This document shows positions 35,284 through 51,340 of a stretch of 64,000 nucleotides of DNA, one piece after another; the stretch's first letter is position 1; every line of letters starts with the position of its first letter. The translations under genes were made by a program, and so were the position numbers. The notes under the pieces are model-generated. The model made no database searches. It saw nothing but the letters and a program-made list of their open reading frames with translations, and was not told the DNA's origin. Source of the DNA: Roseomonas xinghualingensis (lineage in GTDB: Bacteria > Pseudomonadota > Alphaproteobacteria > Acetobacterales > Acetobacteraceae); contig NZ_JAOXLP010000001.1 of NCBI RefSeq assembly GCF_025791835.1, positions 458,534 through 522,533 of the forward strand. Reading direction: 5' to 3'.

Positions 35284-37998
35284 TTAAGCCAGCTCCTTCA
35301 CCATGGAGAATTCTTCTGCAGGCTTGAAATCGAGAACTTGAGCCCAGACCTCCTCAACAGAGGTGGGCGTCAGCACCACCAGATCGCCCGGGCGCGCCAT
35401 GCGGAGGCAAAGATCCGCAGCTTCATGCTCGTCCAGCACACGATGCAAGCGATCCTCCGGAAAGCCGGTGCCGAGAACTCCCTCGGCCATCAGGCGGATC
35501 ACCTCGCCGGAGAGGCGTCCACGGCCATCCGGCCGCTCCCGCAGGACCACATCATCGAAATGACCCGCGGCGATGCGACCCATCTCACGTAGGTCTTCGT
35601 CGCGTCGGTCGCCCGGGGTGCTGATCATGCCGATCAGGCGTCCATGGCTTGGGCGGAGTTTGGCAACGAGATCGCAGAGGGCCGCAAGACCTGCCGGGTT
35701 GTGGGCGTAATCGACAATCACCCGGAAGCCGTGGGCGTCATGCACATTCAGCCGCCCTGGGCTCTGCTCGAAGGAGGTGGAGAAGTTCTGCAGTGCCGCA
35801 CGGATGACGGGCAGGGAAACGCCCTGTGCATAGGTCATCGCGACCGCCGCAAGCGCATTCTGGATGTTGAAGCCAGCCATGCCACCCAGGGCTGCCGGGA
35901 TCTCGGCCGCGCTCATCAGCGGCAGTCGGCGCCGGTCGTCATGCACCACGATATCGCCACCATCCTGGCCATCCTCGCACACCACGGCCAGCCCGCCCCG
36001 GTTGACATGCTCACGCAGGGGGGCGGGCATGGCATCCCCGCCCCGCATGGAGAAGAAGGCGATCCGCCCGCCGGCATGGCGCTCCATGGCCAGCGTCAGC
36101 GGGTCATCGGCATTGAGCACGCTGCAGCCATCGCGCCGGACGGATTCGACGACGACGGACTTCACCGCCGCCAGATCCTCCAGCGTATTCACCTCCTTCA
36201 GCCCGAGATGATCGGCCTGGATATTCAGGACGGCGCCGACATCGCATTCCTCGAAGCCCAGCCCTTCGCGCAGGATTCCGCCGCGCGCCGTCTCCAGCAC
36301 CGCCGCCTCCACGCTCGGGTCACGCAGCACCATGCGCGCGCTGCGTGGGCCACTGGCGTCGTCGTCCGTTATCTTGTCGCCGTTGATCCAGATGCCGCTG
36401 GTATTGGTCATGCCAACCGTCAGGCCGGAATGGCGCAGGATATGGGCCACCATGCGGGTCGTGGTGGACTTTCCGTTGGTGCCAGTGATGGCAAAGATCG
36501 GAATGCGACCCGTTTCCCCATTGGGGAAGAGCATGTCGATAACAGGGCGGGCGATGTCGCGTGCCCAGCCTTCGAAAGGCTCCAGATGCATGCGGAAGCC
36601 AGGCGCCGCATTCACCTCCACGATGCCGCCCCCCGTCTCGCGGACGGAACGGCGGATGTCTGGCGCAATGAAGTCAATGCCAGCGACGTCCAATCCCACC
36701 GCCATGGCGGCTCGGCGGGCGATGCAGGCATTGTCGGGGTGAATGTCATCCGTGCGGTCAATGGCGGTGCCGCCGGTGGAGAGATTGGCGGTGTCGCGCA
36801 GTGCCACGCAGCGGCCCTTTTCCGGCACGCTCTCAAGCGTCATCCCGCCCTTGGCGAGAAGGTCGAGAACATGCGCATCCACCTTGATGCGGGTGAGGGT
36901 TTTCTCATGCCCGTCACCACGGCGGGGGTCGCGATTCACCTCATCGATCAGGGCCGCGATGGTCTGCTCGCCGTCACCGACGACGTGGGCCGGAACGCGC
37001 TGCGCGACTGCGCGCACCTCTCCGCCGATGACGAGGATGCGGTGGTCATGGCCCACATACTGCTGCTCGACAATCACATCGCGGCTACGTTGCGCGGCAT
37101 GCTCGAAGCCGCGGCGCACGTCATCGGGCGTACGCAGGTCCAGGCTGACACCACGCCCGTGATTGCCGTCCAGTGGTTTGGTCACAACGGGATAGCCGAT
37201 CCGCTCGGCCGCGCGCACAGCATCCTCCGCCGTGTCCACCACGGATCCTTTCGGAACGGGAAGGCCGGCTTCGGAGAGAATCGTCTTGGTGAGGTCCTTG
37301 TCGCCCGCGATTTCCACTGCGATGTTCGAGGTGCGGCCCGTGATGCTGGCGCGCAGGCGCTGCTGCTTCTTGCCGTGGCCCAACTGCACCAGGCTGTGCT
37401 CATCCATCCGCATCACCGGAATGCCGCGCCGCTCCGCCTCCTGCACGATCGAGCGGGTGGTGGGACCCAGGGCGCGGCGGCCGACCAGTCGGGTCAGCAC
37501 TTTCAGCCCCGCCTCAACGCCCCCGCCATCCTCAAGCGGGTCGCGCCGGTGAAGCTCTTCCAGCCCCGCGATGCCACGCAGCTCCGGCGGCAGCAGGGAT
37601 TCCACCAGTTGCAGTGCGAGCCGCCCGGCGAGAAGCCCCACCTCTTCCTCTCGATACGCGAAGAGCACATTGTAAACGCCGGGTTGGCCGCGAACGGAGC
37701 GCGTCTTGCCACGTGTCACGCGCGAACCGGCGCGGGTCTGCAGTTCCAGCGCCACATGCTCCGTGACATGGCCAAGCCAGGTGCCCTCCTGCAAGCGGCG
37801 CACGAAGCCTCCTGGCTCACCGTAAGAGCAGCCATGCTCCTGCAGTCCTGGCAGCATGGAGAGCAGGCCTTCGGTGAAGCCAGGCAACCGATTCGAGGGG
37901 AAATCCTCCAGCGAGCCAAGGTCGAGGCGGATGCGAATCATGGGGGTGTGGCTGAAGAGATGCGGGCCACGATAGACCGCCGAATGGAGCACGCGCAT
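35284..37998 (-). CDS. cphA: Cyanophycin synthetase
   Basis: CphA builds the arginine-aspartate polymer cyanophycin, using an ATP-grasp domain to add aspartate and a Mur-ligase-like domain to add arginine. The protein of 904 residues shows the N-terminal CphA domain (LHSAVYRGPHLFSHTP), the ATP-grasp part (PVVTKPLDGNHGRGVSLDL), the Mur ligase P-loop GTNGKSTTTRMVAHIL and DYAHNPAGLAAL. The start is set at ATG 37998, where family similarity begins; ATG 38034 adds 12 residues. It is a CphA1-type enzyme with normal length. It is the first gene of the cphA-iaaA-cphB operon. Confidence 0.93.
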   Translation of the reverse strand: MRVLHSAVYRGPHLFSHTPMIRIRLDLGSLEDFPSNRLPGFTEGLLSMLPGLQEHGCSYGEPGGFVRRLQEGTWLGHVTEHVALELQTRAGSRVTRGKTRSVRGQPGVYNVLFAYREEEVGLLAGRLALQLVESLLPPELRGIAGLEELHRRDPLEDGGGVEAGLKVLTRLVGRRALGPTTRSIVQEAERRGIPVMRMDEHSLVQLGHGKKQQRLRASITGRTSNIAVEIAGDKDLTKTILSEAGLPVPKGSVVDTAEDAVRAAERIGYPVVTKPLDGNHGRGVSLDLRTPDDVRRGFEHAAQRSRDVIVEQQYVGHDHRILVIGGEVRAVAQRVPAHVVGDGEQTIAALIDEVNRDPRRGDGHEKTLTRIKVDAHVLDLLAKGGMTLESVPEKGRCVALRDTANLSTGGTAIDRTDDIHPDNACIARRAAMAVGLDVAGIDFIAPDIRRSVRETGGGIVEVNAAPGFRMHLEPFEGWARDIARPVIDMLFPNGETGRIPIFAITGTNGKSTTTRMVAHILRHSGLTVGMTNTSGIWINGDKITDDDASGPRSARMVLRDPSVEAAVLETARGGILREGLGFEECDVGAVLNIQADHLGLKEVNTLEDLAAVKSVVVESVRRDGCSVLNADDPLTLAMERHAGGRIAFFSMRGGDAMPAPLREHVNRGGLAVVCEDGQDGGDIVVHDDRRRLPLMSAAEIPAALGGMAGFNIQNALAAVAMTYAQGVSLPVIRAALQNFSTSFEQSPGRLNVHDAHGFRVIVDYAHNPAGLAALCDLVAKLRPSHGRLIGMISTPGDRRDEDLREMGRIAAGHFDDVVLRERPDGRGRLSGEVIRLMAEGVLGTGFPEDRLHRVLDEHEAADLCLRMARPGDLVVLTPTSVEEVWAQVLDFKPAEEFSMVKELA

Positions 37999-38188
37999 CG
38001 ACACCTTGTCGGGCGTTGTGGGTTCGATACCCATGGACTGGCTTTCTCGCTCTTATGTCTTTTGTTGGTGTTGGCTGGCCGATGTGGCGAACGGCTGCTC
38101 ATCGTGGAGGAAGAGTGACGTCGCTGTTCCGCTCTGCCGAACGTAATGGACTATTCCTGGTTACATGCCCGTGCAGCATTAAGTGCTT

Positions 38189-39551: not shown

Positions 39552-42365
39552 TCAGGTTCCGGAGATCATCTCCCTGATCCGGCTGGCCAGGAGATCCATC
39601 TGGAACGGCTTGCTGAGGACGTGCATGCCGGGTTCCAGGTGGCCGTCCCCAAGGACGGCGCTCTCGGCATAGCCTGTGATGAACAACACTTTCAGGTCGG
39701 GCCGGAGCATCCGCCCCGCATCAGCCAACTGACGGCCATTCATCCCGCTGGGCAGCCCGACATCGGTAACAAGAAGATCGATGCGCGTATCGGATTGCAG
39801 CACCTGCAACCCGGCCGGACCATCCGCCACCTCGATCGCGGTGTAGCCCAGATCCTCCAGAACCTCGGTCACCAGCATTCGGACGGTGGGCTCGTCATCC
39901 ACGACCAGAACGGTTTCGCCTCGTTCGGCGCGTGGCACTGGCACCAAGTCGGCCTGGGTGTTCTCGCTTTCCACCTCGCCCTGGTACCGCGGCAGGTACA
40001 GGCGCATCGTGGTGCCCTGGTTTTCCTCGGAGTAGATGCGGATCTGTCCGCCGGACTGCTTCGCGAAACCGTAGATCATGGACAGGCCGAGGCCGGTGCC
40101 CTGCCCGATCGGCTTGGTGGTGAAGAAGGGATCGAAGGCGCGCGCCATCACCTCCGGCGTCATGCCAGTGCCTGTGTCAGTGACCGAAATCGAAACATAT
40201 AGGCCGGGCGCCATGCCCCGCTGCCGCGAGCCCCGCTCGTCTATCCGTATATTCGCGGTCTCGATGATCAACCGGCCGCCGTCTGGCATGGCGTCCCGGG
40301 CGTTGATGCAAAGGTTGAGCAGCGCATTCTCGAGCTGGTTCGGATCGCACAACGTGGCCCACAGGCCGGCGGCCAGGGCCGTCTCAACCTGGATCCCGGG
40401 CCCCATAGTGCGTTGGATCAACTCCGCCATACTGTCGATCAGCCGGTTCGGATGCGTCGGCTTCGGGGCGAGCGTCTGGCGGCGAGAAAAGGCCAGGAGC
40501 CGATGCGTCAGCGCGGCGGCACGGTTCGCGGCACCCTGGGCGGCCGTTATGTATCGGTCTGCCTGGGAGAGCCTTCCCTGGGCCATCCGTGTCTTCAGCA
40601 ACTCCAGGCTTCCGATAATGCCGGTAAGCAGGTTGTTGAAGTCATGTGCCAACCCGCCTGTCAGCTGCCCGACCGCCTCCATCTTCTGGGATTGGCGAAG
40701 CTGCTCCTCCGCCTGCCGCAGGGCCTCGGCCTGCTCCTTCTCCGCCGTCACGTCGCGGCCCACGGCGTTGATCAGTCCCTCGCCCGATGCCGCGGACCAG
40801 CTGATCCACCGGTAGGTCCCCTCCCGGCTGCGACAGCGGCTGTCGAACCGCATCAGGCTCTCCTGCCGGGAAAGTGCCGAGATCCCTTCCCGCACATGGC
40901 CGATATCGTCCTGGTGGATCAGGGCAAAGAAGTCGTGGCCGAGGAGATCGATCTCCGACCAGCCCAGGACCGCTTTCCAGGCTGGATTGATGGCCGTGAT
41001 CGTACCGTCGAAATGCGCCACCAGCATGATCTCGGCCGAGAGGCGCCAAAGCCGGTTGCGGTCCGCCGTCCGCTCCGCGACGCTCGCCTCAAGCCTTCCA
41101 TTGAGGCGGCGCAGTTCCGCCTCGCTCCGCTTGGCGTCGGTGACGTCGTAGATGACACCGCTGAAGCGGATGTCGGATGTTTCCATGTCCTGTTGGAACT
41201 CGCCGCGCCGCATCAGCCAGCGCGTCTCCCCCGTATCGGGGCGCGTGATGCGGAACTCGGCCTGACTGATGCTCCCGACCTGTGGCCGGGTCAGCACGTC
41301 GATGATCGGCGTATCCTGCGGATGGACCACCGCATTGATGGTCCGCAGCGGAAGATCCTGCGCCTGCTGAAGGCCCAGGAGATGACAGAACTCCGCGGAA
41401 ACCGAGGCCGTGCCAAAGCCGTGGACATATTCGAAGGTGCCGATGCCGCCGGCGGTCTGGGCAACCCGCAGCCGCTCCTCGGCCCGCTTCTGGTCGGTTA
41501 CGTCCACCAGGGTGCCCACGAAGCGGCCCCCGGGGTCGTTCTCATCCTCGCGATAGCAGCGTCCGCGCGCATGCACCCAGCGGGTCGCGCCGTCGGGGAG
41601 GAGAATCCTGTATTCCTTCGAGAACACCTCCGCCCCGCGCAGCATCCCGCCCACGGCGAGCCGGATGCGCATCTGATCCTGTGGATGGATGATGGAGAAG
41701 AAAGCCCCGGGGGTGACGCCGCGCGCCGCCTCCTCCTCTCCCAGGCGGTAGAGGGCTGCGAAGCGCGCATCCCCGACGACCCGGCGCTCCGCGATGTGCC
41801 AGTCCCAGGAGGCCATGATGCCGCAGGTGGACAGGGTGGCGCGCAACCGGTCACTTGCGTCGTCCAACGCCTGCCTGTTCGTGCGTGCCTCGTTCGGCAC
41901 GCCAGACGTCTTCTGTATGGCGGTGGTATCTGCCCGCATTGCCAGGAAGAAGGCCGGCCGCCCGGCCTCGTCCATCAGCGGCGTGATGACGAGGCTGTTC
42001 CAGAACCGGCTTCCATCCTTGCGCCGGCTCAGCAGCTCGGTCTCGAAGGGCTGCCCGTTCCGGAGGGTTGCGGCCAACGCATCCAGGGTGCCGGAGTCGG
42101 CCTCGGGCGCCTGGAGCAGGCGGCAGGCACGGCCGATGACCTCCTCTGGCGCGTAGCCGGTTAGCCGTGTGAAGGCAGCATTGACGAAGACAACCGGGCT
42201 GCCGGGCTGCCGGGGATCGCTGACGACAACGGAAAGGTCGGATCGGGCCAGGGCGCCGAAGAGCGGACCAGCCAGGCGCCGCAGCTCCTCGGGAGCTGCG
42301 GGCTCGCTTTCACCGTTGGTCATTGCGGGTGGGGGATCCTGCCGCCGGCCTGCCGGCTCCGTCAT
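39552..42365 (-). CDS. LOV/PAS hybrid histidine kinase with C-terminal receiver
   Basis: The 937-residue cytosolic protein contains an N-terminal LOV-like PAS domain (about 33-150), three more PAS domains (about 175-290, 300-415, 430-545), a histidine kinase core with phospho-acceptor in GLAHDFNNLLTGI, an HATPase domain, and a receiver (about 815-935) with the phospho-acceptor Asp in LLVTDVGLP. In the first domain GRACRLLQ aligns with the LOV motif GxNCRFLQ, keeping photoactive-type Cys81, and FWN is kept. The flavin-contacting Asn and the late Gln are replaced by Ala80 and Arg144. It follows the cheC gene after 105 bases and is the last gene on that strand. Confidence 0.88.
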   Translation of the reverse strand: MTEPAGRRQDPPPAMTNGESEPAAPEELRRLAGPLFGALARSDLSVVVSDPRQPGSPVVFVNAAFTRLTGYAPEEVIGRACRLLQAPEADSGTLDALAATLRNGQPFETELLSRRKDGSRFWNSLVITPLMDEAGRPAFFLAMRADTTAIQKTSGVPNEARTNRQALDDASDRLRATLSTCGIMASWDWHIAERRVVGDARFAALYRLGEEEAARGVTPGAFFSIIHPQDQMRIRLAVGGMLRGAEVFSKEYRILLPDGATRWVHARGRCYREDENDPGGRFVGTLVDVTDQKRAEERLRVAQTAGGIGTFEYVHGFGTASVSAEFCHLLGLQQAQDLPLRTINAVVHPQDTPIIDVLTRPQVGSISQAEFRITRPDTGETRWLMRRGEFQQDMETSDIRFSGVIYDVTDAKRSEAELRRLNGRLEASVAERTADRNRLWRLSAEIMLVAHFDGTITAINPAWKAVLGWSEIDLLGHDFFALIHQDDIGHVREGISALSRQESLMRFDSRCRSREGTYRWISWSAASGEGLINAVGRDVTAEKEQAEALRQAEEQLRQSQKMEAVGQLTGGLAHDFNNLLTGIIGSLELLKTRMAQGRLSQADRYITAAQGAANRAAALTHRLLAFSRRQTLAPKPTHPNRLIDSMAELIQRTMGPGIQVETALAAGLWATLCDPNQLENALLNLCINARDAMPDGGRLIIETANIRIDERGSRQRGMAPGLYVSISVTDTGTGMTPEVMARAFDPFFTTKPIGQGTGLGLSMIYGFAKQSGGQIRIYSEENQGTTMRLYLPRYQGEVESENTQADLVPVPRAERGETVLVVDDEPTVRMLVTEVLEDLGYTAIEVADGPAGLQVLQSDTRIDLLVTDVGLPSGMNGRQLADAGRMLRPDLKVLFITGYAESAVLGDGHLEPGMHVLSKPFQMDLLASRIREMISGT

Positions 42366-42470: not shown

Positions 42471-43109
42471 TCAAGCCTCATCTTGCATAACCCGGTCGAT
42501 GAAGTCGTTCACCAGCAACTGCAGGGCGCCAAGGGAGTGAAGGTCCATTACCATGGCGATGTAGCCACGGATGCTCCGGTCCCGGACGGAGAAGTTGATG
42601 TAGAGGAAAAGGACGAGCCCTTCCTCTCCCCCGCCGTCCTCAGACTGCAACAGCTCCCCGCCCTTGCCGTGCAGCACCTGCGGCAACGACATGGTGAGAG
42701 GGCGCTGCAGCATGTTCGCCATGGTGGCCAGGCAGCTGTTGAGAATAATATTGCCGGTCTCAGCCAGCGCCTCCTGCTCCATCCCGGCGACTTCCTCGGC
42801 CGGTACCGCCGCGCCCACCACGGCACGCACCAGCTCCATACTGGTCACCTGGGGGAAAATCAGCAGCGCGCGGCCCCGGAAGGCCCCGGCGAAGTCCTGC
42901 CACACCGCTACCAGGTCGCCGCCCTCGCGCTCCTGGATGAGGGTAGCGGCCCGGCGATGGCCGATCACCTCGATGGAGGGAACGGAGAGCAGGACCTCCC
43001 CGCCCACCATCTTGCGAAGACTGGCGGCGGCCCGGCTGACGCCGATATTCACCAGCTCCGTAAGGGCGTCGCGCTCCAGATCGCTCAGCACGATCCCGGG
43101 CTGGGTCAA
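42471..43109 (-). CDS. cheC: CheC-type phosphatase
   Basis: CheC-family proteins dephosphorylate CheY-P. The 212-residue protein has two copies of the active-site pattern [D/S/E]-x3-E-x2-N-x22-P: DALTELVNIG with the proline in SVPSIEV, and EALAETGNIILN with the proline in SLPQV. Both are intact in spacing, though the first residue of the second is Glu. The start overlaps the response regulator stop by four bases, so the substrate is likely that regulator. CheC is uncommon in alphaproteobacterial clusters, which usually rely on CheY sinks. Confidence 0.88.
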   Translation of the reverse strand: MTQPGIVLSDLERDALTELVNIGVSRAAASLRKMVGGEVLLSVPSIEVIGHRRAATLIQEREGGDLVAVWQDFAGAFRGRALLIFPQVTSMELVRAVVGAAVPAEEVAGMEQEALAETGNIILNSCLATMANMLQRPLTMSLPQVLHGKGGELLQSEDGGGEEGLVLFLYINFSVRDRSIRGYIAMVMDLHSLGALQLLVNDFIDRVMQDEA

Positions 43110-43489
43110 CGCACGCCCGCGCGCAGACGCAGGCTCGCGCCGGATACGAAGCCTCGTAATCCTTCTTCCGTCACCGGCTTGGCCACGAAGGTCGCGTTGA
43201 CGGCGCGGGCCCGGGCGATCACCTCGTCCTGCACATTGGCGGTGATGACGGCAAGCGGCATGGTCGGGTGCAGCGCGCGCAGTTCGGCTGCCAGGGTCAG
43301 CCCATCCTTGCCCGGCATGTTGTAGTCGAGCAGGGCGAGGTCGATCCCTCCCGCGGTGATGCGTGCCATGGCTTCCTCGGCATTGCCGGCCTCCACGCGC
43401 TCCCAGCTCGGCTCCAGCGCATTGATCGCCTTGCCGGCCACGATCCGGGCAAGCTTGCTATCATCGACAATCAGGACAGTGGTGGCCAT
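43106..43489 (-). CDS. CheY-like single-domain response regulator
   Basis: The 127-residue protein is a lone receiver domain. It keeps the acidic pair Asp9-Asp10, the phospho-acceptor Asp55 (LLDYNMPGKDG), Thr83 (VITAN) and Lys104 (VAKPVTE). It has no output domain, as in CheY. The start is set at ATG 43489; an upstream ATG at 43534 adds residues outside the receiver fold. It lies 65 bases after the STAS gene and overlaps cheC, its probable phosphatase. Confidence 0.88.
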   Translation of the reverse strand: MATTVLIVDDSKLARIVAGKAINALEPSWERVEAGNAEEAMARITAGGIDLALLDYNMPGKDGLTLAAELRALHPTMPLAVITANVQDEVIARARAVNATFVAKPVTEEGLRGFVSGASLRLRAGVR

Positions 43490-43554
43490 GCAGTGCTCCC
43501 AGGAAGGCCGCGCCTGGGGCGAGCCCGTCCTCAACGCCTATGTTCGTTCCCAGT

Positions 43555-43803
43555 CTAGCCCGGAGGCGTGGCCGCCAAAAGCGGGGCCAGCCAGCGGGCC
43601 AGGAAGGGGTCGCCGGCGGGGCCGGCCAGCGGGGGGCGCAGCGCCAGCAGCACCTGGATCACCGCTGTGTGCAGCCGGACGGCCGAGGTCAGGTCCACCA
43701 CCCGCCCGGCTTCCTCCTGCAGCAGGGAAAGCAGGGGCTCTGCATCCTCCGCCCGGCACTCGCCCTCCAGCCGGATGACCGATCCCTCCAGCCGGACGCT
43801 CAT
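43555..43803 (-). CDS. STAS-domain protein
   Basis: The 82-residue protein begins MSVRLEGSVIRLEGECRAED and contains VVDLTSAVRLHTAVIQVLLA, the strand-helix pattern of STAS domains (anti-sigma-factor antagonist family). The serine normally phosphorylated is at the DLTSAVRLHT turn, at Thr or Ser. The start overlaps the cheA stop by four bases, so it is expressed with CheA. A lone STAS protein inside a che operon is unusual and may act as a scaffold or as an output. Confidence 0.75.
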   Translation of the reverse strand: MSVRLEGSVIRLEGECRAEDAEPLLSLLQEEAGRVVDLTSAVRLHTAVIQVLLALRPPLAGPAGDPFLARWLAPLLAATPPG

Positions 43804-45767
43804 CCGATGAGCTCCGGAAGATCGAGCACCATGAGCACCTGCCCATCCCCCAGGAGTGCCGTGCCGAGAAGCCCAGGCATTCCTGACAGCAGCCCGGCCA
43901 GGGGCCGCAGCAGCACGTCCGTCCGCCCTGCGAAGCCGTCCACCTCCACGCCGATCCGCTCGGCTCCGGCGCCGATCACCAGCACCTGGGCGATGTCGCC
44001 GCGGGGCCCGGCGGGGCGATCCAGCAGCGCCGGAAGACGGACCAATGGCACCGTCCGGTCCCGCAGCACGAAGGCCTCGCCCTGGCGGAGGGGCAGGATG
44101 CCGGCTGCCGGGATGCGGGCGGTTTCCGCGATCGCCTCCATCGGCACGCCGAAGACCTCCGTTCCCATGCGCACCAGCAGCACGGTGGTGACCGATGCCC
44201 CCTGCGGCAGCAGCAGGCGGACGGTGGATCCGGCGCCGGGCCGGCTGGCCAGGGATACCTTGCCGCCCAGCCCCTCCACGGCCGTTCGCACCGCATCCAT
44301 CCCAACCCCGCGCCCCGACAGGGCCGTGACGGCCGAGGCGGTGGAGAAGCCGGGCTGGAAGATCAGCTGAATGGCCGCAGCGTCATCCAGGGCGTCGATC
44401 GCCGCCTCGGGCATCAGGCGCCGCTCCTTCGCGGCGCGGCGGATCCGCGCCGGATCGATGCCGCGGCCGTCATCCGTCACCTCCACCGCAACCCCCCCGC
44501 CCTCGCTCCGCGCCTCCAGGGTGATGCGCCCCGTCACCGGCTTGCCCGCCTCCGTCCGCGCCGCCGGGGCCTCGATCCCATGGTCCAGGGCATTGCGCAG
44601 CAGGTGGAGTAGCGGATCGAACAAACCGTCCACGATCGCCTTGTCGGCCTCCACCGCCTCGCCCCGGATGTCCAGCGCCGCCGCCTTGCCCAGCCCGGAG
44701 GCCGCCTCCCTCACCAGCCGCGGCAGGCGGCGGAAGGTTCGGGCGAGCGGCGTCATGCGGACACCGAGCACGGTGCGGTGCATCGCCTCCGCCAGGGCCC
44801 CGATCTCGGCCTGGCTTTCGCCAAGGGCGCGGGCCAGGCGCGGTTCGGCCTCACCCATCTGCGCGATCAGGTGGCCCAGGCCGTTCTTGGCGACGATCAG
44901 CTCACCCACGAGGTCCAGCAACGCGTCGATCCGCACCGTGTCCACCCGGAGGCTCCGTCCGGTGGTGCCTACCGGATCGCCTCTGGCCGGCTCCTCGGGC
45001 GGAACCGGAAGGACGGGGGATGGCGTGGTCAGCGTGGTGGTATCGACCTGATCGGAGACGAAGCGGAAGACCTGCCGGACCGCCTCTTCCTCTGCGGTGC
45101 TCAGCAGTTCGATGACAAGGTTGCAGGTAAAGGGATCGATCATCCCTTCAGGCCACGGCTCCCGCTGTCGCAGGCGCAGGGCGATCAGTTCCGGGACGGA
45201 GCGAATGAGCGCCATCGGGTCGTCGCCAAGGAAGAAGCAGTCCGGCACCGGCACATAGCGCAGCGCGGTGACGCGCCGCCCGGCGGCCTGCGCCTTCGCA
45301 ATCGCCGGGGCCTCCGCCATGGCCAGATCGGGCAGCCATGCGGGATCGGGCGCGGCGGGGCGGGTGGGGGAAGAAGCAGCATCCACCCCCAGGGGCACCT
45401 GCAGCGCTTCCTCCAGCCTGCGCCCGCACGCCGGTGCATCATCGGGCAGGCGCCCGGTGTGGGCGATCGCCTCGATCCAGGCCTCGCTGGTGCCGATGCA
45501 GTCGAGCAGGGGGTTGATGACCTCGCGTCCTACGGCGAGATGCCCGGCGCGGATGGCATCCAGCAGGTCCTCGGCCGCATGCAGCGTGCGTTCCATTGGC
45601 TGGAAGCCGAATACCGCCACCGATCCCTTCAACGTGTGTACGGCCCGGAAGGCGCCAGCCAGGCGCGCCTCATCCGCCGGGTCATGCTCCAGCGCCAGCA
45701 GGTCCTCGGTGGCCTGCTGCGCCAGCTCGCGGCCCTCGATCAGGAACTGCTCCAGCAGGTCGCTCAT
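43800..45767 (-). CDS. cheA: Chemotaxis histidine kinase CheA
   Basis: CheA phosphorylates the response regulator and CheB. The 655-residue protein has an N-terminal Hpt domain with phospho-acceptor His44 in AVHTLKGS, an unusual middle region (VPDCFFLGDDPMALIRSVPE, about 190-260) instead of a standard CheY-binding P2, the dimerisation helices, an HATPase domain (LLRNALDHGIE, VEVTDDGRGIDPARI, GRGVGMDAVR) and a C-terminal CheW-like domain. No receiver is fused. Four-base overlaps tie it to cheR upstream and to the STAS gene downstream. Confidence 0.94.
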   Translation of the reverse strand: MSDLLEQFLIEGRELAQQATEDLLALEHDPADEARLAGAFRAVHTLKGSVAVFGFQPMERTLHAAEDLLDAIRAGHLAVGREVINPLLDCIGTSEAWIEAIAHTGRLPDDAPACGRRLEEALQVPLGVDAASSPTRPAAPDPAWLPDLAMAEAPAIAKAQAAGRRVTALRYVPVPDCFFLGDDPMALIRSVPELIALRLRQREPWPEGMIDPFTCNLVIELLSTAEEEAVRQVFRFVSDQVDTTTLTTPSPVLPVPPEEPARGDPVGTTGRSLRVDTVRIDALLDLVGELIVAKNGLGHLIAQMGEAEPRLARALGESQAEIGALAEAMHRTVLGVRMTPLARTFRRLPRLVREAASGLGKAAALDIRGEAVEADKAIVDGLFDPLLHLLRNALDHGIEAPAARTEAGKPVTGRITLEARSEGGGVAVEVTDDGRGIDPARIRRAAKERRLMPEAAIDALDDAAAIQLIFQPGFSTASAVTALSGRGVGMDAVRTAVEGLGGKVSLASRPGAGSTVRLLLPQGASVTTVLLVRMGTEVFGVPMEAIAETARIPAAGILPLRQGEAFVLRDRTVPLVRLPALLDRPAGPRGDIAQVLVIGAGAERIGVEVDGFAGRTDVLLRPLAGLLSGMPGLLGTALLGDGQVLMVLDLPELIG

Positions 45768-46618
45768 ATGGCCGCCGGACGTTGATAGACGATGGCATCC
45801 TCGAAGCGGCGGGCGGTGAAGCGGTCTGAGATCCTGGCCATGGACTCCGAATGGCCCAGGCAGAGGAACCCGCCTGGATTCAGCGAATTGAAGAGGTTCC
45901 GGGACGCCGCCAAGCGCGAATCATCATCGAAATAGATCAGCACGTTCCGGCAGAACACCACGTCGAACTGGCCTTGCGTGGCCATGCTGGCGGCATCCAC
46001 CAGGTTCGCAGTCGTGAAACGCACGGATTCCCGGAGGTCCTGGATGATCCGCCGCTGCCTTCCATGCGGTGCCTCGAAATAGCGGCCGAGGAGATCGGCG
46101 GGCAGCCGCGACAGGGCCCGCTCGCCATAAAGGCCTTCCGCCGCGGCGGCCAGCACGGCGGTATCGAGGTCGGAGCCAACGATCTCGATGTTGTAGGCGT
46201 CCACCAGCGGCCAGTTCTCCAGCAGCCAGATGGCGATGGAATAGGGTTCCTCCCCGGTGGAGCAGGGCATGGACCACAGCCGCACGAGGTCGCCCGGGCC
46301 GCGCCGCGACACGATCTCCGGCAACAGGGAACGGCCAAGGCAGCGAAGCTGGTGCTCCTCGCGGAAGAAGTAGGTCTCGTTGACGGTGATGCTGTTGATG
46401 AGCTGCTCGGCCTCGGGCGGACTGGCCCGCAGCAGGGCCATATAGGCCTGGAATGAATGGGTGCCGGACCGCTCCATTCCCTGCGCCAGCCGGCGTTCGA
46501 TGTAGTAGCGCTTGCTCTCACCATAGAAGATGCCGGTGCGGCGATAAATGAAGTCGCAGAGGCGCTGAAGGTCCTCGGCGCTCAGCGGCACCGTCAGCGG
46601 AACCCCCACGCCGCTCAT
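45764..46618 (-). CDS. cheR: Chemoreceptor glutamate methyltransferase CheR
   Basis: CheR methylates receptor glutamates using S-adenosylmethionine. The 284-residue protein has the N-terminal alpha domain, then the SAM-binding motif LWSMPCSTGEEPYSIAIWLL and the FCRNVLIYFD segment that closes the site. Length and layout are standard. No TPR or pentapeptide-binding extension is present. The start overlaps the cheB stop by four bases. Confidence 0.94.
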   Translation of the reverse strand: MSGVGVPLTVPLSAEDLQRLCDFIYRRTGIFYGESKRYYIERRLAQGMERSGTHSFQAYMALLRASPPEAEQLINSITVNETYFFREEHQLRCLGRSLLPEIVSRRGPGDLVRLWSMPCSTGEEPYSIAIWLLENWPLVDAYNIEIVGSDLDTAVLAAAAEGLYGERALSRLPADLLGRYFEAPHGRQRRIIQDLRESVRFTTANLVDAASMATQGQFDVVFCRNVLIYFDDDSRLAASRNLFNSLNPGGFLCLGHSESMARISDRFTARRFEDAIVYQRPAAI

Positions 46619-47700
46619 GCCGCCCAGCCCATGAGCATGCCGGCGATCGCCTCAAGCGGCAGCACGGCCTCCGCGCCGCCAGCCCGCACCAGCTCGCCCG
46701 GCATTCCCCAGACAACGGCGGTTTCCTCCGCCTCCGCGATCGTGCGGCCTCCCTCGGCCCGCAGCCGCGCCATCGCGGCGGCGCCGTCATCGCCCATGCC
46801 CGTCATCAGCACGCCGACAAGGCACTCGGCCGGGAGGTGCTGCATCGCGCTCGACACCATCCGGTCCACACTGGGGTGCCAGCGGTGCTCCGGCAGGGCA
46901 GGCGCCGCCATGGCCACCAGCCCGCCGGTCCGTCGGCCCAGGATGATGTCCGCATCGCCCCGCCCGACATAGACCTGGCCAGGCCGGATCGGCACCGGCC
47001 GCGTCACCTCCATCACATCCAGGGCGCAGAGCTTGTCCAGCCGGCGGGCCAAGGGTCCGGTGAAGGCCGCGGGCATGTGCTGGGCGACCAGGATCGGCCA
47101 GGGGAAATCGGCGGGAAGCGGCCCGAGCAGTCTGTCCAGCGCCGGAGGGCCACCGGTGGAGCAGCCGACCAGCACCACCCGTTCCGCCGGGCCGGAAGCC
47201 GGGAGGATGCGGGGTGGGACGGGGCGCGGCGGGGGCTCTCGTGTAACAGCGGGTGGCAGGCCGGCGCGTAGGCGGACGCGCTCCACCAGGCGAAGGCTCC
47301 GGCGCAGCCGGGCGCCGGCTGCGGCCCGTACCTTCTCCACCAGCCGCGGAGCCAGCTCGTCCATGGCCAGCGACACGGCGCCGCGCGGCTTCGGGATGAA
47401 GTCCACGGCGCCCAGCTCCAGCGCCTTCAGCGTTTCCGCCGCCCCGGCCTCGGTGAGGGAGGACAGCATGACCACAGGGCAGGGCTGCTCCAGCATGATG
47501 CGGTCCAGGCAGGCCAGGCCGTCCATGCGCGGCATCTGAATATCGAGCGTCACCACATCCGGCCGGAAGGCGGAGAGGGCCTCCAGCGCCTCGGCACCGT
47601 CACGCGCGAAGGCAACCTCGAAGTCGCCCTCTGCCTTAAAGACTTCCCCCAGCAGGCGGCGCATCAGGGCGGAATCATCGACGATGAGAAGTCGAATCAC
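46615..47700 (-). CDS. cheB: Chemoreceptor methylesterase/deamidase CheB
   Basis: CheB removes methyl groups from receptors when phosphorylated by CheA. The 361-residue protein has an N-terminal receiver (phospho-acceptor Asp53 in TLDIQMPRMDG) and a methylesterase domain with the catalytic serine in GCSTGGPPAL, histidine in AQHMPAAFTGPL and aspartate in GMGDDGAAAM. The start overlaps the end of the CheW gene by four bases. Confidence 0.94.
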   Translation of the reverse strand: MIRLLIVDDSALMRRLLGEVFKAEGDFEVAFARDGAEALEALSAFRPDVVTLDIQMPRMDGLACLDRIMLEQPCPVVMLSSLTEAGAAETLKALELGAVDFIPKPRGAVSLAMDELAPRLVEKVRAAAGARLRRSLRLVERVRLRAGLPPAVTREPPPRPVPPRILPASGPAERVVLVGCSTGGPPALDRLLGPLPADFPWPILVAQHMPAAFTGPLARRLDKLCALDVMEVTRPVPIRPGQVYVGRGDADIILGRRTGGLVAMAAPALPEHRWHPSVDRMVSSAMQHLPAECLVGVLMTGMGDDGAAAMARLRAEGGRTIAEAEETAVVWGMPGELVRAGGAEAVLPLEAIAGMLMGWAA

Positions 47701-49151
47701 GGGGCGGATGCGGCTCCACTTCCGGCCGGCTTCGCCGCCTTCGCGGCCATGGCAGCCAGCAGGTCACGCTCGGCGCCGCTCAGCAGTGCTCCGGGATCGA
47801 TCAGCAGGATCATGCGCCCATCCCGCTCCAGGGTCGCGATCCGGTCGATCACGGCGGTATCGCCGACCGTAAGCTCCGGGGCGGGAGCCAGGGACGAGGC
47901 TGGGACGGAGAGGATTTCCGTCACGGCATCCACAGCGAAGCCGGCCCGGAATCCCTCGATCGTGACCACGAGGACGCGCCGCCTGCGCTCATCGGCCTCG
48001 CCGTCCGCGGAGAAGCGGCGGCGCTGGTCGATCACCGGAAGGACACCGCCGCGGAGATTCATCACCCCCTCCACGAAGGAAGGCGCGCGCGGAAGCCGGG
48101 TCAGGTTGTCCGGCCGGCGCGCCACCTCCTCCACCGAGGCGATCGGCAGGCCGTAATGCTCATCCCCCAGGCGGAACACGACGAACTGTTCGGCCGCCTC
48201 GGCCACGGTCCCAGCCATGTCGGCTGCCTCCTTCGCGTCGGCGAGGATCCGCGACGCCGTCTCGTCATCGAAGAGCTTCGCCAGGGACAGGATGGAGACG
48301 AGCCGCCTTCCCCCATCGAACCTGCCGATCGCCTCCACCCGTGCCTCGCCCACGCCGCGCGTGAGCACCGGCGGCACAGGATCGATTGCCTCCTCGGGCA
48401 GGCGCAGGATTGCTGAGATACGGTCCACGACCAGCCCGACAAGAGCTGGTCCCAGGCGCACCACGAGGATGCGTGCCCGGTCTTGCCCGCCTTCCCCCGC
48501 CGGCAGGCCGAGCAGGGCATGCGGCGAGACAAGCGGCAGCAGCCCGCCCCGGAAGGTGGCGACACCCAGCATCGCCTGATCGGTGCGTGGCACCGCCGTC
48601 ACCTCCGACGGCACGCGCGCCGCAGCCACCACCCGGTCAAGCGCCAGGGCATAGTCCTGGCCCGCCACCACGAAGGCCATCAGCGCCAGCTTCTCCGCCA
48701 GGGCGCCCCTGGCCTCGGCCTCCGGGCCAGCCATTGCGGGCGCAATCCCGCGCACCGCGCCGCGCCGGGCCAGGGTGCCGAAGCCCCGTGCCAGCAGCGC
48801 ATCCAGTTCCACCGGCCGCGCATCGCCGACGCTGCCGAGGGCCGAGACGGAATCCACCAGAAGGCCCGCCTGCGCCGTCCCATTCACCACCACGATGCGC
48901 GCGCTGGGGGAGGGGGCAGCCTCCTCCAGCCCCACCAGCCGCGCCAGGGACACCACCGGCACCACCGCGCCGCGCAGGTTGATCAGGCCGAGCAGGCCGG
49001 GCGGCGCGTGGGGCACGCGGGTCACCGGGCGCGGGCGCAGCACCTCCTGCACCGCTCCGGCGGGGAGGGCGAGGGTCTGGCCGGCGACCGTCACCGTCAG
49101 GGCCTGGCCGCTGCCGACAGGCGCCCCGGTCACGCGCGCCGCCGATGCCAC
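47697..49151 (-). CDS. cheW: Triple-domain CheW scaffold protein
   Basis: CheW couples receptors to CheA. This protein is 484 residues, about three times the usual size, and consists of three CheW domains. Each has its own core motif: GLINLRGAVVPVVSL, GVATFRGGLLPLVSP and GVMNLRGGVLPVIDQ (roughly residues 55-70, 200-215 and 380-395). The start is GTG 49151, with GGAGGG eight bases before it and four bases after the receptor gene; a more upstream start would overlap the receptor. Most alphaproteobacteria use single CheW domains, so multivalent binding is likely. Confidence 0.9.
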   Translation of the reverse strand: MASAARVTGAPVGSGQALTVTVAGQTLALPAGAVQEVLRPRPVTRVPHAPPGLLGLINLRGAVVPVVSLARLVGLEEAAPSPSARIVVVNGTAQAGLLVDSVSALGSVGDARPVELDALLARGFGTLARRGAVRGIAPAMAGPEAEARGALAEKLALMAFVVAGQDYALALDRVVAAARVPSEVTAVPRTDQAMLGVATFRGGLLPLVSPHALLGLPAGEGGQDRARILVVRLGPALVGLVVDRISAILRLPEEAIDPVPPVLTRGVGEARVEAIGRFDGGRRLVSILSLAKLFDDETASRILADAKEAADMAGTVAEAAEQFVVFRLGDEHYGLPIASVEEVARRPDNLTRLPRAPSFVEGVMNLRGGVLPVIDQRRRFSADGEADERRRRVLVVTIEGFRAGFAVDAVTEILSVPASSLAPAPELTVGDTAVIDRIATLERDGRMILLIDPGALLSGAERDLLAAMAAKAAKPAGSGAASAP

Positions 49152-49155
49152 GGGA

Positions 49156-51093
49156 TCAGCCCTCCATCCGGAGCTCGTCGGCGAGGCTCGCGATCTCCTC
49201 AATGGCGGCCGCTAGCTCTTCCACGCCCTTGGCCTGCTGACGGGCCGCGACGGAGGCTTCGGCGGCGGCGCCGCTGGCCTCCTCGGCCGCCGCCGCGATC
49301 TGCTGCGTGCCGACGAGCACCTCGCGCACCGCGCCAAGCACCGTTTCGGCACTGCCCAGGATTTCATCCGTGCCAAGGCGGAGCGATGTCAGATCGGCCT
49401 CCGCCGTGCCGAGCCGCTCGGCGACACTGCGGAGCTTGCCGACCTCCCCCAGCGAGGCCGCGGCCACGGCGTCGAGGTCACGGCGCACGACCTCCACCTG
49501 ATCGCGGATGTCATGCACCACGTCCTTCATCCGGTCAGCATTGCCGGAGGCATCCCGGGCCAGTTCGCGGATGTCGGAGGACACCACGGCGAAGCCGCGG
49601 CCGGCTTCGCCGACCCGTGCCGCCTCGACCGAGCCGCTGACCGCCAGCATGTTCGTCTGCACGGCCACGAGGGCAATGGCGTCCACGATCTTCTCGATCC
49701 GCCGCCGGGCGGCTTCCAGGGAGCCGACGAGACCGGTAACCGCCTCCCCCTCCCGCAGCGCGCCTTCCAGGTTGCGGCTGAGCTCGGCAGCCGCCCTGGC
49801 TCCCTCCGCAAGGCCGGGGGCCAGGGCCCCGATGTGCCGCACCGCCTCGGACGCGGCGTCACGCGTTGCGAGAGCCGCGCGCTCGATCTGGCTCATGGCG
49901 GAGGAGGATTGATGGGTGGCGGCGGCCTGGGCCTGCGCGCCTCGGGCGATCTGGCCCAAGGCCGTCATGATCTGGCCGGCGGCCCCGGACAGTTCCTGCA
50001 CGGTGGCGGACAACTCCTCGGCGGCGGAGGCAACCTGCTCGGCGCCGGAGGAGCCGGTTCCATCGGCCTGCAGGGTTTCGGCCATGGCCGCCAGGGCCTG
50101 GGCGGTTTGCTGGCTCGCGTCAAGGGCCACGGTCTGCTGCTGCACCGCGCGCTGCGCCTCCGCGGCGGCCGCGGACTGCTCCTCGGCCGCGCTGGCCACC
50201 TGCTCGGCGCCGCGCTGCGCCTCGCGCGCACCGCCATCGGCCTCGGTGGCGGCGAGCAGGACGGCCTGGGCCCTCTCCGTGATGACGCTCATGCCTTCCC
50301 GGACGGTATCGAGGGTAACCACCACGGCGCGCCCGTTCCGGCTTTCGGCCTCTGCGGTCTCGGCCGCCATGCGGATGCGGTCGGTGATGGTGCGCACCTC
50401 GTCGCGGATGGTCGCCACCAGGCCCTGCACCTCTCGCGCGCTTGCCTCGGATACTTCGGCGAGGGCACGGACCTCATCGGCCACCACGGCGAAGCCGCGT
50501 CCATGGTCGCCGGCGCGGGCGGCCTCGATGGCCGCATTGAGCGCGAGAAGATTCGTTTGGTCAGAAATGTCCCCGACGACCGCCGTGATCTCGCCGATCC
50601 GGGTCGCCTGCCCTTCCAGCGTTGTCACGATCTCCACGGAACGGCGCTGGCGCGCGGCGCGGTCCTGCACGAAGCCTGCCGAGCTTTCGACCTGTGCGCC
50701 CACTTCGGTCAGCAGGGCCTGGAGCGCCGCGGTAATGCGACGTGACTCGTCGGCCCGGCCCCGGGCCTGTGCGAAGGCCGAGCCCAGGCTGCTGATGGTG
50801 CCGTGGCTCTCCTGCGTGGCGCCTGCCGCCTCCTCCGAGGCGGAGGCGATCTGCTCCAGCGCGCGGCGCAACTCCTCGGCCGCCGCCGAGGCCTCGCTGA
50901 CGCCGGCCGCCAGTTGCTCCGACGCGGCGCCGATCCGCTCGGCCGCCTTCTGACGGCGGGCGCGAGAGCGGTCCATGGCCCGGCGAGTCGCCGCTCCGGC
51001 AGCGGGGTGCTGCGGGACGTCTGGGGGGCTGTCATGCGGGACCGCCGGCGCTCTGCTGCTGCGGGTAAGTGCAGATGTCTTGACCAGCGCCAT
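49156..51093 (-). CDS. Soluble methyl-accepting protein with two tandem signalling domains
   Basis: The 645-residue protein has no signal peptide, no membrane segment and no recognisable ligand-binding domain. It holds two complete receptor signalling modules. The first hairpin tip (about 172-215) reads [20 protein letters not shown] and [16 protein letters not shown]; the second (about 472-515) reads [20 protein letters not shown] and [16 protein letters not shown]. The tips are exactly 300 residues apart. Long heptad-rich helices with paired Glu/Gln candidates for methylation link them. The start at ATG 51093 follows GGAGGAT. The gene heads the che operon, four bases before cheW. Confidence 0.92.
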
Positions 51094-51340
51094 AAATCCT
51101 CCAGCGAGGGCGGCTCCGCCGCTGCTGCTCCCAGCATACCCGCCCTGGGGGGAAAGGCACATAGACCGGCGTTATGGCGAAGATTGCCTGGATGAGAGGC
51201 CATGGGCGATGACGCGGCTGTGTTCGGGGTGCTGGCAGGGGAGCGGGCCGCCTGCCCTCCTCGCCCTGCCAATCCTGGCTTGTCGCCCCTCATCGGGTCC
51301 AACGCTTGACAGGCCCCGGCCGTCCCCTAACAAACGTCTC
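51094..51340. other. Divergent leader between receptor gene and riboswitch
   Basis: No gene is supported here. It must carry the promoters for the che operon and for the riboswitch transcript. No clear -35/-10 or sigma-54 element was recognised. Confidence 0.3.

Follow-up and report, generated by a model that had tools for sequence, protein, structure and literature searches.

A DosM-type double-tip chemoreceptor at the head of an F9 chemosensory operon with CheC in Roseomonas xinghualingensis

The DosM gene and its operon

In the window, a stretch of 64,000 nucleotides from Roseomonas xinghualingensis (assembly GCF_025791835.1, contig NZ_JAOXLP010000001.1, positions 458,534 to 522,533 of the forward strand), the minus-strand open reading frame (ORF) at 49156-51093 encodes DosM, the double-signalling-domain receptor of F9 chemosensory systems. 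Two signalling domains of the methyl-accepting chemotaxis protein (MCP) type follow each other in one cytosolic chain without a sensor domain, and the gene adjoins one for a triple CheW protein, CheW3. As this pair is the published signature of F9 systems (PMC9321776), the protein is of a known type, and the undescribed receptor class proposed in an earlier, sequence-only reading of this DNA is given up. The F9 assignment is based on DosM and CheW3, and not on the CheA/CheB/CheR class phylogeny of Wuichet and Zhulin. A survey of 2,781 species reported full F9 sets in 64 of them, patchily spread, with 98% of the DosM homologues devoid of a sensor domain (PMC9321776). The receptor gene has the following parts:

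49156..51093, minus strand: DosM-type double-tip chemoreceptor, 645 aa (Pfam, internal repeat, homologues)
51097..51102, minus strand: GGAGGA, ribosome-binding-like, just 5' of the DosM ATG (read from the sequence)
50059..50943, minus strand: signalling module 1, residues 51-345 (internal repeat; hairpin in the model)
50509..50559, minus strand: tip 1, residues 179-195 (sequence, alignment of 86)
50050..50061, minus strand: break between the two hairpins, residues 345-348, of lower confidence and variable (DSSP break, dip in predicted local confidence (pLDDT), column make-up)
49159..50043, minus strand: signalling module 2, residues 351-645 (internal repeat, model)
49609..49659, minus strand: tip 2, residues 479-495, divergent type (sequence, alignment of 86)

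Pfam finds PF00015 only in the 645-residue product, in two stretches, and in a whole-genome profile search both copies score separately (E 7.1e-31, profile positions 22-170 of 172, and E 1.3e-18, positions 11-166). Residues 51-345 align to 351-645 as an internal repeat, and the tips begin at residues 179 and 479, exactly 300 apart. No membrane segment is found by hydropathy, the highest 19-residue Kyte-Doolittle mean being 1.58. The sequence-only reading was thus right about the two signalling modules, the spacing of the tips, and the lack of a membrane helix and of a sensor domain. The structure model predicts an MCP helical hairpin for either module, with the short break between them.

A longer ATG frame is open from 51162 (668 aa). 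However, the ATG start of the 645-residue protein is supported by the GGAGGA just upstream and by an N-terminus common to the relatives, with M at residue 1 in 78/86, L3 in 81/86 and K5 in 78/86 aligned DosM sequences. These 86 comprise the window, eight loci from G-numbered genomes and 77 of 80 named loci, the latter taken from one scan, ranked by similarity to the query and rich in Alphaproteobacteria; L150, L167 and L169 were dropped as split or cut, and L021, L090, L091, L092 and L095 were not put in. The conserved N-terminal motif, MALVK-like (residues 1-9, 51067-51093, minus strand), stands next to a variable-looking stretch predicted to be disordered (residues 8-31); the motif may serve as a docking peptide on a flexible tether. 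At the other end of the protein, residues 623-641, which close the last helix, are nearly invariant (E632, E633 and A635 in 86/86).

The architecture is shared by the homologues. Among the 120 listed, the best of 7,941 passing, all have PF00015 only and 102 are 639-648 aa long; both tip patterns match in 93, of which 85 have the spacing of exactly 300 residues, while the other 27 missed the regular expression at one or both tips. Since the listed homologues share domain content, length and mostly the spacing, the two-tip architecture is not due to chance. A single complete signalling domain, or orthologues with a sensor or membrane domain, the two outcomes that the sequence-only reading had named as counting against it, did not appear among these 120. 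An origin of DosM by truncation of a sensor-bearing receptor was rejected on the same domain content and lengths. The family is rare and patchily spread: counting its own genome, I found DosM-type genes in at least 6 of 120 genomes of the source family and at least 9 of 398 of the source phylum (lower bounds, as few best candidates per genome were scored), and in 25 of 72,556 plasmid records, six of the 25 plasmids being predicted conjugative. These surveys agree with the published one.

DosM heads an F9 Che operon whose genes, all on the same strand, follow in the order DosM-CheW3-CheB-CheR-CheA-STAS-like-CheY-CheC-PAS hybrid kinase, so that the cluster holds the triple-domain CheW of a full F9 set together with its own CheA, CheB, CheR and CheY:

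47697..49202, minus strand: CheW3, three CheW domains (longest ORF, start codon not settled; PF01584 in three stretches)
46615..47700, minus strand: CheB, receiver and methylesterase (Pfam)
45764..46618, minus strand: CheR methyltransferase (Pfam)
43800..45767, minus strand: CheA with HPt, H-kinase_dim, HATPase_c and CheW domains (Pfam)
43555..43803, minus strand: STAS-like protein, 82 aa (weak Pfam STAS_2 match, E 0.008, below cut-off)
43106..43534, minus strand: CheY-like single receiver (PF00072, synteny)
42471..43109, minus strand: CheC/CheX-type phosphatase with two E-x2-N-x22-P centres (PF13690 and PF04509 above cut-off; motif)
39552..42365, minus strand: soluble multi-PAS hybrid histidine kinase with receiver, 937 aa (domain scan, synteny)

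The STAS_2 match reaches 16.8 bits against a curated cut-off of 29.2, hence the name STAS-like only. Hydropathy shows no membrane segment in the PAS hybrid kinase. In CheA, the stretch PDCFFLGDDPMALIRSVPEL between HPt and H-kinase_dim has no Pfam match and lies at the usual place of a P2 domain; a similar stretch was spotted by eye in the CheA of locus L022.

Two tips of a different kind

The sequence-only reading had taken the hairpin-tip sequence to be kept in both modules. This is so for tip 1, whereas tip 2 is a distinct conserved variant, with MLAV[S/N]G where tip 1 has LLALNA. In the alignment of 86, which rejects two ordinary identical tips, L185, N186 and A187 are present in every tip 1, and V485, G487, D507 and I508 in every tip 2, with S (49) or N (37) at residue 486. 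I presume that residues 186 and 486 correspond to Asn381 of E. coli Tsr. Also kept in 86/86 are E490 and R493 of tip 2, which I take to be contact residues for the trimer and for CheA/CheW. The invariance of tip 2 is partly a matter of selection, as 77 of the 86 sequences were fetched with patterns holding part of its signature; in the 93 homologues chosen without such patterns, the glycine of tip 2 is always present and L replaces V485 in three.

In a tree of the modules of 25 DosM proteins, the first and second modules fall on separate sides of one branch (support 68 for module 1, 98 for module 2). As this holds with Actinomycetota and Thermodesulfobacteriota included, although long outgroup rows in this tree are unreliable, both tips trace to one old duplication, after which the ends have stayed distinct. 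A recent local duplication or an assembly artefact was rejected, the modules being separate in 25/25 sampled DosM proteins across phyla (with the support of only 68% for module 1). The two tips likely sit in baseplates of different make-up.

Two types of F9 operon

Typing of the operons needed at least 8.5 kb downstream, with both strands counted; this was available for 71 of the 80 named loci, and nine shorter ones were left out. In the full set of 80, the two-tip ORF is found in 78 and a CheW3 relative in 79. Of the typed loci, 40 have CheC without a second receiver, 30 a second receiver without CheC, and one has both. This one, L126 from Azospirillum halopraeferens, is why I reject the rule that CheC and a second receiver never occur together. 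A STAS-like relative is present in 68/71 typed loci (37/40 of the CheC type, 30/30 of the receiver type, 1/1 with both), and CheW3, CheB, CheR and CheA accompany CheC in 40/40 CheC-type loci. Nine CheC-type loci contain HEAT and the first receiver, which the other 31 lack. The gene order of the window is repeated in four other loci (L017, L018, L020 and L021); L089 agrees in its operon end yet retains HEAT together with the extra receiver. As an example of the receiver type, L022, L088, L093 and L094 read DosM-CheW3-CheB-HEAT-CheR-receiver-CheA-STAS-receiver, followed by a single-tip MCP.

A PAS-kinase-like gene lies near 38/40 CheC-type versus 7/30 receiver-type loci; these counts are phmmer matches without domain scans, so that other kinases may be included. 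A hydrophobic segment (1.87-1.89) occurs in 5 of 37 PAS-kinase-like proteins, all five from Methylobacterium. The single-tip MCP was recognised with one query in 16/30 receiver-type loci and not in 14/30. I considered whether it could be a soluble partner of DosM that the CheC type had lost, and rejected this: of 17 such ORFs, 15 contain a hydrophobic segment of at least 1.8, one reaches 1.78 and one is clearly soluble, and VC1394 of Vibrio cholerae has a membrane region. Mostly membrane-anchored, the single-tip MCP does not qualify as a soluble partner for DosM, and from its lack in the CheC type little can be concluded on partners.

The operon type is reflected in DosM itself. In a FastTree of the 86 sequences, 45 CheC-type proteins are split from 30 receiver-type ones by a single branch with local support of 100, which is a bipartition and not a rooted clade, 11 rows being unlabelled. 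Residue 486 follows this division (S in 44/45 of the CheC type, N in 26/30 of the receiver type), a match that is one shared history and not many independent events. Literature searches found no CheC-type F9 system by that description, and the available text of PMC9321776, with the same signature of CheW3 and mostly sensorless DosM, describes full and partial sets and no CheC-bearing subtype. However, the che2 operon of Azospirillum brasilense is in print with CheC (PMC8561660), so that the subtype is partly visible already. Relative to the literature found, three points are new: loci with CheC form a coherent operon type, the tips have remained different, and no soluble partner is visible in this genome.

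On plasmid ABSP7_p2 of A. brasilense Sp7, CheC flanks the DosM operon on both sides: receiver-CheC-DosM-CheW3-CheB-HEAT-CheR-receiver-CheA-STAS-like, with receiver-PAS-CheC in divergent orientation. Like the window it has a double-tip MCP (48% identical), a downstream CheC (57.5% identical), a STAS-like gene and a CheW that aligns over 495 residues of the triple CheW; it differs from the window in retaining HEAT and the extra receiver, in having a second CheC upstream, and in its divergent block. I infer that this is the published che2, with CheA2, CheW2 and CheC, six of whose ten proteins were detected by mass spectrometry and whose function is given as unknown (PMC8561660); according to PMC6759762, cryo-images have so far shown no array assignable to it. 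A. brasilense Sp7 could serve as a model for a CheC-flanked F9 system.

A probable cytosolic array and its possible input

Very probably, DosM is a scaffold receptor that bridges the two baseplates of an F9 chemosensory array in the cytosol. This is carried over from V. cholerae, where DosM was shown by cryo-tomography to be an extended rod that has a signalling domain at either end and reaches from one baseplate of CheA and triple CheW to the other; the array there is purely cytosolic, with a height of 35 nm (PMC7534058). The bridging of two CheA-CheW layers suggested by the sequence-only reading is supported by this. The protein of the window resembles V. cholerae DosM (VC1403, cluster I/F9), as judged from the published description of the latter and not from its sequence, in its two signalling domains, its cytosolic and sensorless nature, and its place beside a triple CheW and an F9 CheA. 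Unlike the V. cholerae cluster, which holds the membrane MCP VC1394 (PMC7534058), the operon here ends with CheY, CheC and the PAS hybrid kinase. The length between tips is held at about 300 residues across the relatives. The single-tip receptors in the cytosolic array of Rhodobacter sphaeroides differ from DosM. The formation of a cytosolic chemoreceptor cluster is common to that species and the system proposed here (PMC6829392, PMC3964821).

By analogy, each DosM chain would stretch as a rod between two opposed CheA/CheW3 baseplates, a tip inserted into either, and would thereby set the spacing and tie both layers. Judged from the gene content, DosM would itself sense nothing, CheR and CheB would set its methylation, and CheA would pass phosphate to the CheY of the operon, from which CheC would remove it. 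A different protein would supply the input; the soluble PAS hybrid kinase encoded in the operon is the likeliest, the alternative being an unrecognised component. Input, output and sheet polarity are all inferred for this system.

Several observations weigh against this picture. DosM fills every second trimer in V. cholerae, where a further cytosolic receptor is presumed to be needed (PMC7534058). In the source genome (4.88 Mb, 132 contigs, 99.24% complete), no soluble MCP was found among the four PF00015 genes besides DosM, a partner without PF00015 lying outside this search; all four have membrane segments (one strong of 2.19 and one marginal of 1.63 in the full ORF on contig C52). With a helical rise of 0.15 nm per residue, a straight helical contour of 300 residues would measure about 45 nm, no plain match to the published distance of 35 nm, which requires overlapping or tilted rods unless the distance is different here. 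The break between the hairpins would allow other geometries too. The fold alone is weak evidence, as Foldseek matches of the model to crystal MCPs are weak (2ch7_A, E 1.1e-3), and in VIA-align, which did not serve as a family test, many unrelated long-helix proteins rank above MCPs. Finally, the array is predicted here from the gene content.

Nor does G088 show a soluble MCP among its three other MCPs (L053 read only to the locus edge). However, G003 and G053, both of the CheC type, have soluble PAS-MCPs or a protoglobin-MCP, so an array of DosM alone is possible in this genome but no rule of the CheC type. Taken together, the data allow a further, tentative reading, to which I give a rather low probability: a CheC-type F9 system of single origin in Alphaproteobacteria, in which CheY-CheC and the soluble PAS hybrid kinase replaced the end receiver (and, in 16/30 loci, the mostly membrane-anchored single-tip MCP), with hosts, this one among them, in which a polar sandwich array of DosM alone, its tips being different, would take its signal from the hybrid kinase without any chemoreceptor sensor domain. 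I rate this distinct CheC-type system slightly lower than before because the single-tip MCP is mostly membrane-anchored. With the new receptor class removed, the F9 question narrows to what feeds the signal into a sensorless scaffold, and the conserved operon subtype closing with CheC and a soluble PAS hybrid kinase offers a concrete candidate for this input, no soluble partner MCP being visible here; A. brasilense Sp7 and Roseomonas relatives would be possible hosts in which to test it.

Alternatively, only tip 1 may engage CheA while tip 2 is a structural end that binds CheW3 alone, giving the array a signalling and a passive face. This deserves attention, though I consider it doubtful. The contrast of the invariant L185-N186-A187 with the equally constant signature of tip 2 fits it, as does the separation of the module groups on the tree. 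However, tip 2 need not be passive, as it retains the putative contacts E490 and R493, and its constancy, partly produced by the selection of sequences, is relaxed at V485 in the unselected homologues.

Quite unlikely is that DosM joins membrane arrays or other Che systems without a cytosolic sheet of its own. The four membrane MCPs and other CheA and CheW genes of the genome would permit it, and the single-tip MCP of receiver-type operons is mostly membrane-anchored. However, the operon is self-sufficient (CheA, CheW3, CheB, CheR, CheY and CheC), with its order repeated in four loci, and the core Che genes accompany CheC in every CheC-type locus. The genome has 12 CheW-domain matches, two H-kinase_dim genes and, by eye, a further CheA-like protein on contig C37; FliG is present as well. 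Two further chemosensory clusters lie in this genome: L026 (G000:C37:8000-27900) contains CheW domains, a CheR-like gene, an MCP whose tip is odd and, by eye, a CheA-receiver-like gene, and L023 (G000:C109:88000-107900) has a CheA frame with two CheW-like matches.

Least probable of all, and very improbable in itself, is the insertion of both tips of a chain into the same baseplate, as a tethered receptor pair that favours trimers of dimers without a bridge; the variable four-residue break of lower confidence between the hairpins would allow it, but the rod fitted for DosM of V. cholerae reaches across two baseplates (PMC7534058) and the spacing of the tips is nearly invariant, like a ruler.

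Two near-identical F9 operons, L018 and L019, lie at two places of one contig in G088; in both, the CheA matches are broken up among several ORFs, and one has a short CheW3 match, perhaps through sequencing indels or a duplicated assembly stretch. In the window, the ORF at 35284-38034 (minus strand, 916 aa) looks by eye like a cyanophycin synthetase.
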